Shown in pieces: positions 1 to 7,353 of a stretch of 32,345 bases of DNA. A model generated the notes under the pieces. It saw only the letters and a program-made list of their open reading frames with translations. It ran no database searches and was not told the origin of the DNA. The stretch is taken from contig CAKZVB010000127.1 of assembly GCA_937922015.1 (NCBI GenBank), positions 1-32,345 of the forward strand, read 5' to 3'. Each line of letters begins with the position of its first letter. The stretch's first letter is position 1. The position numbers and the translations under genes are program-made. The DNA is from an uncultured Granulosicoccaceae bacterium (lineage in GTDB: Bacteria > Pseudomonadota > Gammaproteobacteria > Granulosicoccales > Granulosicoccaceae).

Positions 1-948
1 CTGTCCACAATTCACGTATAGAAAAGTATCCGATCCCAGGTATTCTGCAAAATCTATTACGCCTGTGCAGTTGGATTTCTCTGCATCGCAAAGGGAAATA
101 TGCTCAGGCCGGACCCCCATTGTAGTGACGGATTCTACTTCACCACCCTGTGCACCGAGATCTGATAAGGAAACACCGTTATGCCCTTCCAGTGAAAGTC
201 TGCCCTGCGTGTATTGGCAGTGCAGAATATTCATCTTGGGGCTACCGATAAACCCTGCCACAAACAGGTTATCCGGCTGTTCATACAACTCTACCGGCGT
301 ACCGGTTTGCATCACCAGGCCATCTTTCAATACCACTATCCGGTCTGCAAGTGTCATCGCTTCAACCTGATCATGGGTCACATAGATCATCGTGGTTTGC
401 AGCGTACTGTGGAGCCTGGCGATCTCAAAACGCATTTGTACACGCAGGGCCGCGTCCAGGTTAGACAATGGTTCATCAAACAGGAAACCTTCCGGCTCGC
501 GCACTATCGCACGACCGATGGCAACACGCTGACGCTGCCCGCCAGACAAGTCTCTGGGCCTTCGCTTAAGGTAGGGCTGCAGCTCCAGAATATCTGCAGC
601 CCGATCAACTTTTTCGGCAATTATTGATTTATCAGTGCCGGCTGTTTTTAAGCCGAAGCCCATGTTTTCACCGACCGACATATGCGGGTATAGCGCATAG
701 GATTGAAACACCATTGACAACTTCCGACCCGACGGCGGAATGGCGGTGACATCTTTTTCGTTAAGCCAGATCGTCCCTCTGCTGGTATCCTCTAGTCCGG
801 CTATCATTCGCAACAAGGTAGATTTGCCACAACCCGAAGGTCCGACAAACACAATAAACTCTCCGTCATTGATATCAATATCAACGCCTTTAATGACCTG
901 GACATCCCCAAACCACTTTTCAACTTTTGAAAGCCTTATTGCACCCAT
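1..948 (-). CDS. Sugar ABC transporter ATP-binding protein, MalK/UgpC/AglK type (3' end cut off by window edge)
   Basis: The first 316 residues of a cytoplasmic ATPase that powers import through the two permeases encoded upstream. The start is the ATG at 946-948, preceded by AGGA, nine bases after the hydrolase stop. Visible motifs are Walker [10 protein letters not shown] (about residues 36-44), the Q-loop in [12 protein letters not shown], the signature LSGGQRQR (from residue 134), Walker B FLFDEP and the switch THDQ. After about residue 235 comes the regulatory OB-like domain typical of MalK-type subunits, including the GVRPEH motif; the sequence then runs off the left edge in frame. Family members are usually 350-380 residues, so only the last 40-60 are missing. 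Position as last gene of a binding protein-permease-permease-hydrolase-ATPase operon matches aglK of the alpha-glucoside system. MalK-type ATPases often serve several importers, so the substrate cannot be read from this gene alone. Confidence 0.95.
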
Positions 949-957
949 GAGAGGTTC

Positions 958-2259
958 CTATGCCGCCATCTTTTGATGACTTGGTGAAGCCCATGCCAGC
1001 CAGATAGCAGCAGTCCAGGAAAAATCTGCACCAATGCACCCTTCACCACTGAATGGATTGAAACATTCGTAGAACCCTGATTTCTCTATCAGCAAAGCCA
1101 TATCGCGGCGAATATCCTCCGCCATACTGTTATGTCCCTGCTCATCCAGGCCTGTCGAAATAATAAAATTCATCTGCGGCCAAATGGGACCACACCAATA
1201 GCGTTGCGGGTCAAATTTTTCAGCATCAGGGTCCCAGCTAGGCATCATGTAGTCCACCTTGTCAGCTATGCGCTGCATGTTCTCGATCGTTTTAATGCGC
1301 TGAGTCTCTGTCCCTGCATCTGCATAAAAACAAAGTGCGCTCGCGTTACTAAAACCATTTGAGTATTCTCCGCTGACAATATTGCGGGCGGTAAACGCAC
1401 CGATAGTTTCATTCCAGAAATAGTCACTGCCTTGCACACCGAGCTCTATATATTTTTCAAGCTCTGCTGATTGTTCTGACAGATTTAATCGTTGAGCAAG
1501 CTTTAGCAAATCCCTGTTAGCTCTTAACAAAATAAAGTGTATGCCCGGGTCTGCCATTAAAAAGGGCCCGGTATCTGTCAGCGCCCGCTGATCCCAACCT
1601 GACTCGCGACCGTACTTCACGATCGATAGATATTTATCGTATTGTTCCTTGCTGGGTCGTTGTTCAGGGTTTGCATGTTCGGTATCTTTACGTACGTAGG
1701 GTTCCAGGCGGGGATCGATAGTCATTGTTGACAGACCCAGCTCCCAATCCGGACAGTTGTCGCGCCCCGTCTCCCACGGATGTACAGTAGCAACCACAGA
1801 TGCCGCAGCCGACGTTCGCTCTGTTTGATACCAACGATGCCATGAGAGCATTTTATCGATAAGCTGTGATGATCTTTGCAGATCATCAGCACCACCGGAT
1901 TCAACCAAGGCTAAAGCAACACTGGCAAGGATAGGCGGCTGGGAAATACCGGTGGAAGGTATAAGCGGTGGCGGCGTTGCAGATGTTTGCGTCTGCCACA
2001 CTGAAGGACCGGGAAAATAGTCAGGATCATCACTTCGAAAAATGATACTGGGGATCATGCCATTAGCCCACTGCCCTTCGAGCAACAACTCTAACTCTGT
2101 CCACGCCCTGTCGCGGTCAAAAGTCGAAAGGCCCAGAGCCGTAAACGCAGAATCCCAATTCCATTGATAGGGATACAACCGGGCAGTTGGTATTGTGTAT
2201 CCACCACGATCATTTTTTCTTAGTATTTCCCGCGCCTTGTTATCAAGCTCTATAGACAT
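958..2259 (-). CDS. Glycoside hydrolase, GH63/MGH1-like (mannosyl- or glucosylglycerate hydrolase-like)
   Basis: A 433-residue protein with no signal peptide, so probably cytoplasmic. It resembles the (alpha/alpha)6-barrel hydrolases that split mannosylglycerate or glucosylglycerate into sugar and glycerate. Supporting segments are the N-terminal YPYQWNWDSAF, WETGRDNCPDW (D167 the likely catalytic acid), GPIWPQMNF, and FNPFSGEG followed by DFSWTAA (E406 the likely base). The 239-residue spacing between D167 and E406 is close to that I recall for the Thermus mannosylglycerate hydrolase (D182/E419), and overall length is similar. The ATG has a good AAGGA site seven bases upstream and lies four bases after the permease stop, so it is translated within the transporter operon. 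It probably hydrolyses the imported glycoside. Substrate could instead be glucosylglycerol, trehalose or another alpha-glycoside; the family fit is firm, the substrate is not. Confidence 0.85.
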   Translation of the reverse strand: MSIELDNKAREILRKNDRGGYTIPTARLYPYQWNWDSAFTALGLSTFDRDRAWTELELLLEGQWANGMIPSIIFRSDDPDYFPGPSVWQTQTSATPPPLIPSTGISQPPILASVALALVESGGADDLQRSSQLIDKMLSWHRWYQTERTSAAASVVATVHPWETGRDNCPDWELGLSTMTIDPRLEPYVRKDTEHANPEQRPSKEQYDKYLSIVKYGRESGWDQRALTDTGPFLMADPGIHFILLRANRDLLKLAQRLNLSEQSAELEKYIELGVQGSDYFWNETIGAFTARNIVSGEYSNGFSNASALCFYADAGTETQRIKTIENMQRIADKVDYMMPSWDPDAEKFDPQRYWCGPIWPQMNFIISTGLDEQGHNSMAEDIRRDMALLIEKSGFYECFNPFSGEGCIGADFSWTAAIWLAWASPSHQKMAA

Positions 2260-2263
2260 TGGA

Positions 2264-3487
2264 TTATCCTTTTACACTACCGGCAGTAAGCCCTGCAACC
2301 AGAAACCGTTCAAACCACAAGAACAACACCAATACCGGCACGGTAGCAATCACAGCACCGGCCATCAGGTGTTGCCTGGGAATTTCGGAAGAATTAAGCG
2401 CCTGCACACCACGGGACAAGGTAAATATTCCGGGGTCGTCAAGAAACATGAAGGCAAACAAAAACTCGTTCCATGCAATCATAAAGATATATAAAGATAC
2501 TGAAGCGATAGCAGGCAGTGACAACGGCAGCGTTATCTTTGCGATCACTCCCAATCGAGTCAGACCATCCATTAATCCGGCCTCTTCGAGTTCATAGGGT
2601 AAACCACGAAAATACCCCTGCAACATATATACAGCGACCGGAATGGTAGTTGCCGGGTAAACCACAATCAAACCAAGCAGTGTATTACGCAAACCCAACT
2701 GGGAAAATACCGTATACAGTGGTATGACCAACACTATTGCGGGCACCATATAAATAAGCAAAATAGAACGCGACAACACTGCCTGTCCCGGAAATCTGAG
2801 TCTCGAGACTGCATAGGCTCCGGGAATTGAAAATAGCAAGGTTATAAGCACAGTAGACACTGAGACTATTGCCGAATTCAGCAGGAACGTACCGAATTGA
2901 TATTTAGAAAATAGCTCTATATAACTGCGAAACAATTGCTGCGGGCTTTTACTGAGATCGATCGATAAGTCCAGCGGATTAGACAATAGTGACTGCTGAC
3001 TCTTGAGGCTGGTCATTAACATGACATAAAAAGGCAGCGCCACTATTATGATAAAGAAAACAAATCCGAAGCCCTTCATGACACGAATAAAAATAACTTC
3101 TAACTGATAACGCCCCTGGCTCTCCGAACTAACCCCGTCAAGACATAAGTGCCAACTGACAGCGCTGATAATAAATACGGCGAGTGCAGTGGCAATCGGA
3201 ATGAGTGTAGAAAAGTCATTCGCATTTAACACGGAATTGAAAATCACCAGAGTAATAAACGCCACCACCGCTGTCACAGCCACCCACGCCCAGCCGCGTT
3301 TTTCCGGTGGCATTAAAATATATAGCCCAGCCCCTATAGCACCACTGACAAATGCGGCACCAATATCCGGTATCACCGTCTCACCTGTGATCAGCATAGC
3401 CAGAACGCTGAGTACGACGGTGTAAATCACCCCCCAGGCGGCACCGATAAAAGCGGCGATAAAGAATGCATTACCAATCTTCATCAA
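2264..3487 (-). CDS. Sugar ABC transporter permease, MalG/AglG type, with four extra N-terminal helices
   Basis: Inner-membrane permease subunit of 407 residues; MalG-type subunits are usually 270-300. From about residue 135 it is canonical: first core helix 138-159 (GFVFFIIIVALPFYVMLMTS), the conserved EAA loop (ELEEAGLMDGLTRLGVIAKI) that docks on the ATPase, and the C-terminal ending FVAGLTAGSVKG. Residues 1-135 hold four further hydrophobic segments (about 8-33, 42-59, 66-86, 94-116) joined by short loops, which ordinary MalG proteins lack. The reading frame is continuous and overlaps the upstream permease gene by four bases (ATGA), so this is not two misjoined genes. It forms the pore with the neighbouring MalF-like subunit. 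The extra helices might bind an accessory protein or sense membrane state, but nothing here shows that. Confidence 0.92.
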   Translation of the reverse strand: MMKIGNAFFIAAFIGAAWGVIYTVVLSVLAMLITGETVIPDIGAAFVSGAIGAGLYILMPPEKRGWAWVAVTAVVAFITLVIFNSVLNANDFSTLIPIATALAVFIISAVSWHLCLDGVSSESQGRYQLEVIFIRVMKGFGFVFFIIIVALPFYVMLMTSLKSQQSLLSNPLDLSIDLSKSPQQLFRSYIELFSKYQFGTFLLNSAIVSVSTVLITLLFSIPGAYAVSRLRFPGQAVLSRSILLIYMVPAIVLVIPLYTVFSQLGLRNTLLGLIVVYPATTIPVAVYMLQGYFRGLPYELEEAGLMDGLTRLGVIAKITLPLSLPAIASVSLYIFMIAWNEFLFAFMFLDDPGIFTLSRGVQALNSSEIPRQHLMAGAVIATVPVLVLFLWFERFLVAGLTAGSVKG

Positions 3488-4785
3488 CCATCATCCTGTG
3501 GTGAGTACTTAAAAAACAATAGCGCCGAACACAGTAAAACGACAAAAACGACAACCGCCACAGCAGCGCCGGCACCCAGATTTGATACCGCGAAAGCCTG
3601 TTCATAAACATCGACGGTCAAGGTGCGAGTGCCCGCTCCACCACCTGTTAACAGGAAGATGTCGTCAAACTTATTAAACGTCCAGATAAAACGCAGTAAA
3701 AAAAGCACCGCTAATATACCGGCAAGCTGGGGCAGAGAGATGTACCAGAATTGCTGCATGGGAGTGGCACCGTCCATTTCTGCGGCTTCGTAAGTCTCAC
3801 TGGACATTGATTGCATACGCGCCAGTATGAATAGAAAAGACAATGGAAAGTAGCGCCATACTTCAAAAGAAATAACCGTGGTTAGTGCCACCGGGAATCT
3901 GATAGTGAAACCAAACACGGTAATCGGCACTGAGCGCTGACCCAGAAAGTTGACCGGACCATCTATGGCACCGATTTTCATTAAAATCGCGTTGAGAGTT
4001 CCACCCGGTCCTGCATCAAGCAATAGCACCCATGCAAACGCCACTGCTATCACAGGAGCAACGTATGGGAACAGAAAAAAACCACGCAATATACCGCGTC
4101 CGGGAAATGTCGCGCTGAGTAGCTGCGCCGCGAACAGACCAAATACAAGCGCACCTATCGTACCGAAGACTGTGTAGTACAACGATACACGCAATACCCC
4201 CCAGAATTCGGAGGCTGAGAATATTTTTCGATAGTTTTCGAGGCTGAAAACAGAATTAGTTAATATGTTATCGGCGTCACCGGAGATAACAGGTTTGCTT
4301 TGTCGTGGTTTAACGGGATCATCAATATACGACTGTGACACCACCACCGGAATTTTCAATGTTTCCCGTTTGCCAGCAGCATATGCCCCCAGGTTGCAGT
4401 CCAGCACTCTGTCTGAAATGCTACAGCGCTGATCAATATCGCCATCTATTGTCAGTCCCTCCGGAAGACTGTCGCTGAACACCACATTGTCTATATCGCC
4501 GCGCTGTGAAGAATTTCGCAAGCGATAACTTATTTCAGAAAGATCACCCGCGGCCTTTGGCACTGGTCGCATGCGTTCATTTGCGATGACCGTTGGCGGA
4601 CGCAGATCCCCCAGCTGTACCGGCTTAAAACTGATCCAGAAATTGGCCAGTAAGGGCAGCAGCACGATGGACATCACGATCAACAGCGTGGGTAAAATCA
4701 TCAGGTACGCCAGCCGCATTTCCGAATGACTTAAGGGCCCACGGCCTTTCGGAGGCGTACTTTTAGATGCTGTGCTTTCTGCCAT
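3484..4785 (-). CDS. Sugar ABC transporter permease, MalF/AglF type, with a DUF11-like periplasmic insertion
   Basis: Inner-membrane permease of 433 residues. The first helix is about 26-50; the conserved NYRKIFS segment that normally follows within 30-40 residues appears only at 184-190. Between them lies an insertion of about 120 residues. Within it, 82-150 reads like a DUF11/conserved-repeat (immunoglobulin-like) module: a SDSLPEGLT strand, two cysteines at 121 and 130, NLGAYAAGK and a final beta strand. The rest is canonical, with the EAA loop TYEAAEMDGATPMQQFWYI and six predicted core helices ending in a short cytoplasmic tail. Enterobacterial MalF also has a large folded P2 loop that contacts the binding protein, so a similar docking role is a reasonable inference. 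The gene overlaps the next permease by four bases. Confidence 0.93.
   Translation of the reverse strand: MAESTASKSTPPKGRGPLSHSEMRLAYLMILPTLLIVMSIVLLPLLANFWISFKPVQLGDLRPPTVIANERMRPVPKAAGDLSEISYRLRNSSQRGDIDNVVFSDSLPEGLTIDGDIDQRCSISDRVLDCNLGAYAAGKRETLKIPVVVSQSYIDDPVKPRQSKPVISGDADNILTNSVFSLENYRKIFSASEFWGVLRVSLYYTVFGTIGALVFGLFAAQLLSATFPGRGILRGFFLFPYVAPVIAVAFAWVLLLDAGPGGTLNAILMKIGAIDGPVNFLGQRSVPITVFGFTIRFPVALTTVISFEVWRYFPLSFLFILARMQSMSSETYEAAEMDGATPMQQFWYISLPQLAGILAVLFLLRFIWTFNKFDDIFLLTGGGAGTRTLTVDVYEQAFAVSNLGAGAAVAVVVFVVLLCSALLFFKYSPQDDG
4336..4542 (-). other. DUF11-like domain inside the MalF-type permease
   Basis: Residues 82-150 of the permease. The pattern (SDSLPEGL, a cysteine, another cysteine nine residues later followed by NLG, then AAGKRETLKI) is the usual signature of DUF11 repeats found in bacterial surface proteins. 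Topology places it in the periplasm between helices 1 and 2, where C121 and C130 could form a disulfide. Assigned by eye, not by profile search. Confidence 0.6.
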
Positions 4786-4907
4786 GTTTTAGAGGTCGAT
4801 CAGACAATAATCAATAAGTATCCAGCTAGCTGCGTTATCCCAGCCGGGCATCCGGCCAGTGTGGATTTGGCCGGTCAGTTATTCGGGTGTGGTGCAGAGC
4901 TGGAATC

Positions 4908-4930
4908 AAAGGCGGGATATCCCCGCCTTT
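4908..4930 (-). promoter_or_regulatory. Intercistronic stem-loop between binding protein and permease genes
   Basis: Nine-base-pair perfect stem (4908-4916 with 4922-4930) around a five-base loop, lying in the 172-bp gap after the binding-protein stop. The tail is only TTT, so it is at best a partial terminator. Hairpins at this position commonly protect the binding-protein mRNA and lower permease expression, which would give more binding protein than membrane complex. Confidence 0.6.
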
Positions 4931-4957
4931 ATCGCTGACAACAACTGCTAAAGTGCT

Positions 4958-6298
4958 TTAGAGCGCTTTATGTTTCTCAACAATTGCTTTTAATGCATCA
5001 TCCAGAGACAGATCACCATCTATATACTGACGGATCACTTGCGACATAACACGTGCATTAACTATCTTTGAAGCTGTTGCCAGATTACCTGATTCAACAC
5101 CCCAACGATCACCTACTGATAGCCCGGCGACGATATCGTCAATCACTGATTTTGGATAGATATCACCCAGTGGTGCTTTGCGATCAACGCCCACAGGTAA
5201 GGTGGCCCAAAGCTCTTCATACTCAGTGCTGCCGGCTGCATTGCCACGACGCACCGGGAATTTGCCTTCAGGAGCCTGGCTTAACCAATCTCCATATCCC
5301 TCGGAAACCACATACTGCACGAACTCTGAAGCGACGTCGGTGTTGGCATCGGCGGTGATACCCAGGTATCGAACATCCGCGTAAGCCGCCCCGGCATCGT
5401 TACCCGGTCCTGCAAAGACAGTGACAAAACCTGTTTTCTCGGCAAGCTCCTTTGAAGTGGTATCACTGGCATAGGTCACTGGTGCGCTGTCACGCAGGCC
5501 ACCCAACTCGTCAAGTAGTGACGGAGACCAGATAATCATTGCAGCCCTGCCGTCAAGGTATTGCTCGCGTGACTGCTTCCAGAATAGCTCACCTTTTGGA
5601 GAGGCATCGGCAATGACTTTGTAGAACTTCAGTACTTCAGCAAGTGCAGCGGTATCTTCATTGATTGAACCGTCAGCATTCACCGGGGAGTAACCCGCTG
5701 CAAGGGAGATATGTTCGATTAGCTGCATCATGTAGGTTTCGTCAATCTTGGTTGCCGTAACAAAACCGTACATTTCCGGTGGGTTGTGCAGCTTTTTGAT
5801 CGCCGCTTCGATATCTGCAAATGTCCTGGGTGGATTCAAATCGTTTTCGGCAAATAGATCTGAGCGATAGACCACCAGCTGAGTCCAGCCGTCGGTGGGT
5901 ACCGAGACAATCTCGCCATTTGATTTAGCCATATTGACAGGACCTGCCGCGTAGCTGTCTACACCCAGATCATTGACAACGTCGGTTGCTGCTGCGGTAT
6001 CCAGAATACCGGCTTCGGCAAACGGAAGTAAATGCTGTACTGTGTGATTTAATACGTCAGGTAGTTCACCGGCCGCAAATGCCGCTGTTGTGCGCGTGGC
6101 GATTTCTGCTTCTTCAACAGGTATTATTTCGACAACATGCCCTGTGCTGGCCTTAAAGCCATCAGCCATTTTTTGCTGAATGGCCATACGCTCAGGCTGA
6201 ATTTCCATGGTCCAGAACTTAATAGTATCTGCATGACTGACCGGCATTGCCAAAGCAGTCAATACCGCACTGGCGGTGAGTAGTTTATTTTTAAACAT
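4958..6298 (-). CDS. Sugar ABC transporter substrate-binding protein (extracellular solute-binding family 1, AglE/MalE-like)
   Basis: Periplasmic binding protein of 446 residues that captures the substrate for the two permeases. A Sec signal peptide is clear: lysines at the start, a hydrophobic stretch, then SHA with predicted cleavage after residue 23. The mature part opens TIKFWTMEIQPERMA, followed by HVVEIIPVEEAEI, features of family 1 sugar-binding proteins; several exposed tryptophans (SVPTDGWTQL, FWKQSREQY, IIWSPSL) are typical of glycoside-binding clefts. The ATG is preceded by AAGGG at seven bases and lies 20 bases after the LacI stop, so regulator and binding protein share a transcript. 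A stem-loop separates it from the permease genes. The ligand is inferred only from the operon: a glucoside, mannosylglycerate, glucosylglycerate or similar osmolyte. Confidence 0.93.
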   Translation of the reverse strand: MFKNKLLTASAVLTALAMPVSHADTIKFWTMEIQPERMAIQQKMADGFKASTGHVVEIIPVEEAEIATRTTAAFAAGELPDVLNHTVQHLLPFAEAGILDTAAATDVVNDLGVDSYAAGPVNMAKSNGEIVSVPTDGWTQLVVYRSDLFAENDLNPPRTFADIEAAIKKLHNPPEMYGFVTATKIDETYMMQLIEHISLAAGYSPVNADGSINEDTAALAEVLKFYKVIADASPKGELFWKQSREQYLDGRAAMIIWSPSLLDELGGLRDSAPVTYASDTTSKELAEKTGFVTVFAGPGNDAGAAYADVRYLGITADANTDVASEFVQYVVSEGYGDWLSQAPEGKFPVRRGNAAGSTEYEELWATLPVGVDRKAPLGDIYPKSVIDDIVAGLSVGDRWGVESGNLATASKIVNARVMSQVIRQYIDGDLSLDDALKAIVEKHKAL

Positions 6299-6318
6299 TC
6301 GCTAACCCTTGGTTCGTG

Positions 6319-7353
6319 TTAATGATAATTATTGGCCCTCGCGGGACCATCCGTTTTCCGCAGAACTAGCTCTGCACGTTTCAGGATCTGGTGTTTTGTT
6401 GGATCATCTCCATCGATGATTGCCAACAACATATCTGCAAGCTCACGACCTGACTGAGCCTGCGGCTGAGACATCGTGGTAAGTGGCGGGTTGGTGTGGC
6501 GGCCGATTTTCAGTCCGTCGTAACCTATAACTGAAACATCCTGACCCGCAGTCAGGCCACGTGCCCTGATTGCTGCAAGAACACCAATGGCCTGTGTATC
6601 CGAGACGCACATAAACGCCGTTGGTGGTTGCTCTGAGTCGAGCTGGTTGGCCGCAGCGCTTTCGCCGCTATCGTCATTCATCTCGGTAATTTCAACGATA
6701 GACTCATCCCATGGGATATCGTTATCAGCCAGCGCTTTCTTGTATCCCTCAAGTCGCTGGTAGGAAAAATTATAATATAGGGGGGCACCGATAAAAGCGA
6801 TGCGTCTGTGACCCAGACCCACCAGATGGTTGATCGCTGTTTTTATGGCCAGCTTGTTGTCGATATCGTACCAGGCGTAGCTGTTACTGATTCTGGAGCG
6901 GCCATGCACTACAAATGGAAAATTTGCCTTTTGCAGTAACTTGATTCTTGCGTCGTTGCGGAATGGCCGCGACAACACCACGCCACCAACACGGCCGGAA
7001 GTAATCAGTCGATGAATCTTTTCCGCTTCGTCTTCGGCACTACGTGAGTGGGAGACCAGCAAGTCCCACCCACGTCTGGATACGGAATCGTCAATACCCT
7101 GCAGTAACTGGGAAACAAAGGGCTCTGCCAGCGAGCTGTGGTTTTGCGGAATGACATAAGCCACCGCTTCTGCAACACCGGTTGCGAGCCTGCGGGCGTT
7201 TTGATTTGGCTTATAGCCCAGTTCAACTGCCGCGCTCTGAACACGTTCAACGGTACGCGAACTGATATCAGCGTAGCCGTTCAATGCCCGTGAGACCGTA
7301 CTCTCTGTAAGGTCAAGGGCGTTTGCCAAATCCTTAAGCGTTGTGCGTTTCAT
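6319..7353 (-). CDS. LacI-family transcriptional regulator of the downstream glycoside operon
   Basis: A 344-residue repressor. Residues 4-55 are the LacI helix-turn-helix and hinge helix (TLKDLANALDLTESTVSRAL, then NQNARRLATG). Residues 60-340 are the periplasmic-binding-protein-like ligand domain, with segments such as GVVLSRPF, GHRRIAFIGAP, AFMCVSDTQAIG and VSVIGYDG. It is the first gene of the operon, like aglR of the rhizobial alpha-glucoside locus, and probably releases DNA when the imported sugar or its breakdown product binds. A perfect palindrome with a central CG lies 26 bases upstream of its start, so autoregulation together with the transport genes is likely. No clear Shine-Dalgarno is visible before the ATG. 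Confidence 0.93.
   Translation of the reverse strand: MKRTTLKDLANALDLTESTVSRALNGYADISSRTVERVQSAAVELGYKPNQNARRLATGVAEAVAYVIPQNHSSLAEPFVSQLLQGIDDSVSRRGWDLLVSHSRSAEDEAEKIHRLITSGRVGGVVLSRPFRNDARIKLLQKANFPFVVHGRSRISNSYAWYDIDNKLAIKTAINHLVGLGHRRIAFIGAPLYYNFSYQRLEGYKKALADNDIPWDESIVEITEMNDDSGESAAANQLDSEQPPTAFMCVSDTQAIGVLAAIRARGLTAGQDVSVIGYDGLKIGRHTNPPLTTMSQPQAQSGRELADMLLAIIDGDDPTKHQILKRAELVLRKTDGPARANNYH

Follow-up and report, generated by a model that had tools for sequence, protein, structure and literature searches.

Studies of the accessory dock of the P2 type have centred on the maltose importer of enterobacteria, and biochemical work on MalF P2 was reportedly carried out by Daus and by Grote. 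P2 comprises residues 91-271 of E. coli MalF and touches the binding protein MalE in the solved complex (PMC3150292). DUF11 domains belong to a different setting, that of cell-surface proteins, where they confer stability on adhesins; a crystal structure of such a domain, also called CLIPPER, is available as 9ifr, and many members contain an isopeptide bond with a lysine in the triad, although some lack the bond (PMC12617251). A third point of comparison is provided by the GH63 hydrolases, which include a Thermus thermophilus enzyme whose entry 4wva is named mannosylglycerate hydrolase and a mycobacterial glucosylglycerate hydrolase with Asp182 and Glu419 as catalytic residues (PMC6608630). 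Here, elements resembling all three were found in one locus, in which a domain related to DUF11 occupies the position of P2 in an importer encoded beside a GH63 hydrolase.

The locus lies in the window (the whole analysed stretch of 32,345 nucleotides, contig CAKZVB010000127.1 of assembly GCA_937922015.1, from an uncultured Granulosicoccaceae bacterium of the Gammaproteobacteria) and consists of a six-gene operon at positions 1-7353 with the following genes.

1..948, minus strand: MalK/UgpC-type ATPase truncated by the contig end, assigned from an open frame with a Walker motif and from the gene order of relatives.
958..2259, minus strand: GH63 hydrolase related to mannosylglycerate and glucosylglycerate hydrolases (MGH1-like_GH E 1.2e-104; 2z07 E 3.3e-96), without an apparent signal peptide.
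2264..3487, minus strand: MalG-type partner permease (BPD_transp_1 E 8.6e-19), for which hydropathy shows a hydrophobic extension at the N-terminus (about 115 residues).
3484..4785, minus strand: MalF/UgpA-type ABC importer permease of 433 aa with an inserted DUF11-like domain (BPD_transp_1 over residues 213-422).
4958..6298, minus strand: extracellular solute-binding protein (SBP; SBP_bac_8 E 4.6e-15) with a signal peptide and without a lipobox.
6319..7353, minus strand: LacI-type regulator (Pfam).

The order LacI, SBP, MalF-type permease, MalG-type permease and hydrolase is conserved across loci, with the SBP present in 100 of them, and a MalK-type ATPase follows the hydrolase in both relatives' loci that were read (n=2). 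All 64 SBPs that could be scanned lack a lipobox and should thus diffuse freely. The nearest solved enzyme to the hydrolase is TTHA0978 of T. thermophilus (E 3.3e-96), the enzyme of entry 4wva, followed by the mycobacterial hydrolase, and Asp167 and Glu398 are kept at the positions of the catalytic Asp182 and Glu419. The catalytic pair is thus common to the operon hydrolase and the characterized GH63 enzymes, but the score against the glucosylglycerate hydrolase equivalog NF047898 was 307 bits, far under the cut-off of 550, so that the protein is filed only as GH63 MgH/GgH-like, with its substrate a prediction. Because of this hydrolase, the importer probably takes up mannosylglycerate or glucosylglycerate, and the operon and its relatives look like a locus for uptake and cleavage of these compounds that is common in marine Alphaproteobacteria. 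No published description of the six-gene operon was found. In several loci (L013, L016 and others), the identities of the SBP, LacI regulator and hydrolase form two groups (SBP at ~53-60% and 68-77%) that do not track permease identity, which suggests either that parts of operons have been mixed or that the substrates differ. In addition, three to four hydrophobic helices are predicted before the usual first helix of the MalG-type permease (residues 1-118, positions 3134-3487, minus strand); this extension had no Pfam match, and most of the relatives examined likewise carry a hydrophobic extension.

The 433-aa protein is an ABC importer permease by its match to BPD_transp_1 (PF00528, E 4.1e-14) and by its EAA loop. 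Its top NCBIfam match is UgpA (E 7e-19, far under the UgpA cut-off), its closest solved and named relatives are permeases of the LpqY-SugABC and UgpABCE type, and public plasmid records annotate members of its clade merely as 'sugar ABC transporter permease'. Its parts are as follows.

4627..4719, minus strand: transmembrane helix 1, residues 23-53 (hydropathy peak at 28-46; helix 17-53 in the AlphaFold2 model).
4246..4617, minus strand: periplasmic Ig-like insert of DUF11/CLIPPER type, residues 57-180 (Pfam, hhalign, AlphaFold2, Foldseek and VIA-align).
4330..4518, minus strand: stretch matching the DUF11 profile, residues 90-152 (loop positions 34-96).
4423..4425, minus strand: codon of Cys121, invariant in 89 of 89 loops and opposite Cys130 across a predicted beta-hairpin.
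4396..4398, minus strand: codon of Cys130, likewise invariant in all 89 loops.
3487..4251, minus strand: permease core, residues 179-433, with the cytoplasmic EAA loop EAAEMDGA at 333-340.

The insert of about 120 residues lies between helices 1 and 2, and since the EAA loop is cytoplasmic, the loop joining these helices is periplasmic. From the sequence alone, the initial annotation had described a DUF11-like pattern in residues 82-150 (positions 4336-4542, minus strand, a numbering that agrees with the coordinates of the permease) inside an insertion of about 120 residues before the NYRKIFS block. The insertion was confirmed, as helix 1 and NYRKIFS are separated by 133 residues compared with 14-26 in 20 distant permeases, and the interval proved to lie within the domain but to be too small for it. 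In one relative (L114, G750:C9), the permease frame is 487 aa long and reaches further upstream than in the others, its start codon being provisional.

By position, the insert corresponds to MalF P2. In a structural alignment, model residues 42..420 pair with MalF 79..510, skipping both P2 and the inserted domain, and the hhalign alignment of the cores begins at permease residue 183, equivalent to MalF 262, so that in both proteins a folded domain occupies the periplasmic loop directly before the conserved core. The window's operon also resembles MalFGK2-E in encoding a type I importer with a soluble binding protein, a partner permease and a MalK-type ATPase. It differs in that MalF P2 is larger (~180 residues) and has no sequence relation to the insert, and in that the extra N-terminal helices of MalF (PF20872) are unmatched in the window's permease. 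Homology to P2 was rejected: PF14785 (MalF_P2), which detects MalF itself at E 4e-61, was not listed for the permease at E<=10 in the Pfam search, and hhalign of the loop profile against MalF found no relation (probability 0.2%). MalF was also not among the 50 matches listed for the loop model in the structure search, which excludes nothing. The comparison with P2 made in the initial annotation is therefore right as an analogy of position, without homology. The same slot without a sequence relation seems to have been filled independently, here by a DUF11-type domain, which points to two separate origins of one solution.

The insert is related to the DUF11 domains of cell-surface adhesin repeats. 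In Pfam searches with DUF11 (PF01345), a check likewise proposed in the initial annotation, the whole permease gave 19.6 bits (E 0.0012, residues 97-151) and the isolated loop 21.9 bits (E 2.3e-4), under the gathering score of 24.6. The relation is clear at the level of the clade, for which permeases from 80 loci of species genomes, together with those matched in another 18 genomes from the same family, were aligned and 88 distinct loops extracted, making 89 with the window's own. DUF11 matches were obtained for 70 of these at E<=0.01 and for 24 at E<=3e-5 (best 5.8e-10), and the related DUF7933 profile matches 46. The window's genome itself contains many DUF11 repeats in surface-type proteins, among which the permease loop scores with the weaker ones. 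When 11 of these same-genome domains were compared with the clade-loop profile, hhalign gave a probability of 93% (E 3.1e-7), and the Gly, Asn, Cys-x8-Cys pattern of the clade loops recurred in four of them. A PDB sequence search with the loop profile returned insignificant matches only. Elsewhere in this organism, outside the window (G000:C16:16176-25733), an open frame of 3621 aa, matched 26 times by DUF11, is a candidate giant surface protein.

Structure prediction of the loop, proposed as a check in the initial annotation, returned a folded domain without disorder. When modelled alone, it is a beta-sandwich of seven to eight strands (AlphaFold2, pLDDT 88.7); in the full-length model based on the clade alignment, most of residues 61-170 have pLDDT 87-95 and the transmembrane part roughly 35-80. 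In a Foldseek search of the PDB with the domain model, 9ifr was the second-best match (E 2.2e-4, TM-score 0.60), and VIA-align superposed 105 residues (Z 9.3, rmsd 2.7), although further Ig-like domains, among them those of integrin and AP2 mu, tie with 9ifr (Z within 1). The model and the 9ifr match thus give the Ig-like CnaA-type beta-sandwich of DUF11/CLIPPER, which the insert resembles further in its profile match and its G...N...D.LP pattern. Carbohydrate-binding modules, which also appeared among the Foldseek matches, were rejected as an identity, their resemblance being generic for beta-sandwiches.

Two differences separate the insert from the adhesin domains. It is present as a single copy in a transport protein, whereas adhesin-stalk DUF11 domains form repeats, and it has an invariant cysteine pair instead of the isopeptide lysine. 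No column of the alignment has lysine in more than half of the 89 loops, so no isopeptide bond is expected; since some DUF11 members have none, this does not exclude membership. Judging from the predicted strands, Cys121 and Cys130 would face each other across the hairpin, and a disulfide between them may stabilize the domain in place of the isopeptide bond.

Throughout a family of sugar-type importers from marine bacteria, one membrane subunit contains this Ig-like domain. Among 385 sampled genomes of Alphaproteobacteria, the domain was present in 10, and a search of the same sample with the permease core recovered 10 proteins at 51-81% identity (TMD), all with a loop of 120-131 residues. After a gap in identity, permeases at <=40% core identity had loops of 14-26 residues in 20 of 20 cases measured, a set that holds more distant permeases and not SugA or UgpA themselves. 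The insertion is therefore found in all close homologues, a count that the initial annotation had also suggested making. A tree of the cores unites the permeases that bear the domain in a single clade (support 0.98) and places the lineage of the window among Alphaproteobacterial sequences (support 0.96), a nesting that suggests transfer into the gammaproteobacterial family of the window. Close relatives of the permease occur in 19 of 48 genomes of this family and in 4 of 369 sampled from the whole class, two of the four belonging to the family. Mean identity to the window is 41% for residues 81-151 versus 75% for the core (179-433); such faster divergence fits a species-specific interface, but weak constraint would explain it too. 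Five residues that do not belong to the fold motif (D60, R62, E70, R88 and R90) are invariant in the 89 loops, and are candidates for an interface with the SBP or with the permease itself.

Alongside the fold, the DUF11 relation, the position, the clade-wide conservation and the operon, which are computational results, stands a proposed function: the insert is probably an extra periplasmic dock for the soluble SBP of a mannosylglycerate or glucosylglycerate importer. In this reading, the permease is the MalF-like one of the two membrane halves of a type I importer, and a complete DUF11/CLIPPER-type Ig domain has replaced its periplasmic loop between helices 1 and 2. Placed where MalF has P2, above the periplasmic mouth, this domain would offer the SBP encoded next door an additional surface on which to dock, so as to be captured and oriented, and such capture may promote productive delivery of the substrate, which would be imported and then split in the cytoplasm by the operon hydrolase. 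The position of the domain and the soluble, non-lipidated SBP that always accompanies it make a second contact holding the SBP the most likely role. Against docking counts the fact that most type I importers function without such a domain. Evolutionary distances of loop and SBP are correlated given the core (partial r 0.27, permutation p 0.0005), and by ranks given the core, hydrolase and LacI regulator the partial r is 0.32, with the hydrolase and LacI near zero; since the core-half controls against the SBP gave 0.40 and -0.25, this signal does not discriminate.

The domain might instead be a passive structural element that helps the permease pair to fold, assemble or resist proteases without touching the SBP. 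This reading, which we consider unlikely while giving it some weight, would agree with the stability conferred by adhesin-type DUF11 domains (PMC12617251), the invariant cysteines capable of forming a disulfide and the divergence of the domain faster than the core; the invariant charged D60, R62, E70, R88 and R90, in place of which the DUF11 domains of the same genome have other residues, rather suggest an interface, possibly one with the permease itself. Quite improbable is a tether between the importer and an envelope component such as peptidoglycan, an outer-membrane porin or a glycan. Such a role would suit the usual occurrence of DUF11 in cell-surface proteins (PMC12617251), the large DUF11-repeat proteins of this genome (up to the 3621-aa frame) and the carbohydrate-binding modules among the Foldseek matches, but that likeness is the generic one noted above, a domain this short, present once and seated immediately on the membrane, does not by itself reach across the periplasm, and no porin gene was detected among the conserved operon genes from LacI onwards or downstream in two loci. 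Finally, a DUF11-like pattern arising by chance in an unstructured loop, for which the score of the window's sequence alone under the Pfam gathering score could be cited, is hardly credible and was rejected in view of the clade-wide DUF11 matches, the confident AlphaFold2 fold, the match to 9ifr and the profile match to the same-genome domains.

Docking of the SBP remains the preferred reading. A fuller history, in which a MalF-type permease acquired an adhesin-stalk DUF11/CLIPPER module in a single event and this module turned into an SBP dock, convergent with the unrelated P2 in the same loop, appears about evenly balanced between true and false. According to the initial annotation, DUF11 domains are not known from transporter permeases, and no description of one was found in the open-access literature (subscription papers and Pfam architecture lists lay outside this scope). 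An importer of type I whose P2-like accessory domain comes from a different family is apparently new. If the proposed function is true, the P2-type dock would be a design used more than once, for which unrelated domains can serve, and DUF11 would gain a role outside adhesion. The insert also marks a widespread and uncharacterised importer operon of marine bacteria, probably for mannosylglycerate or glucosylglycerate.
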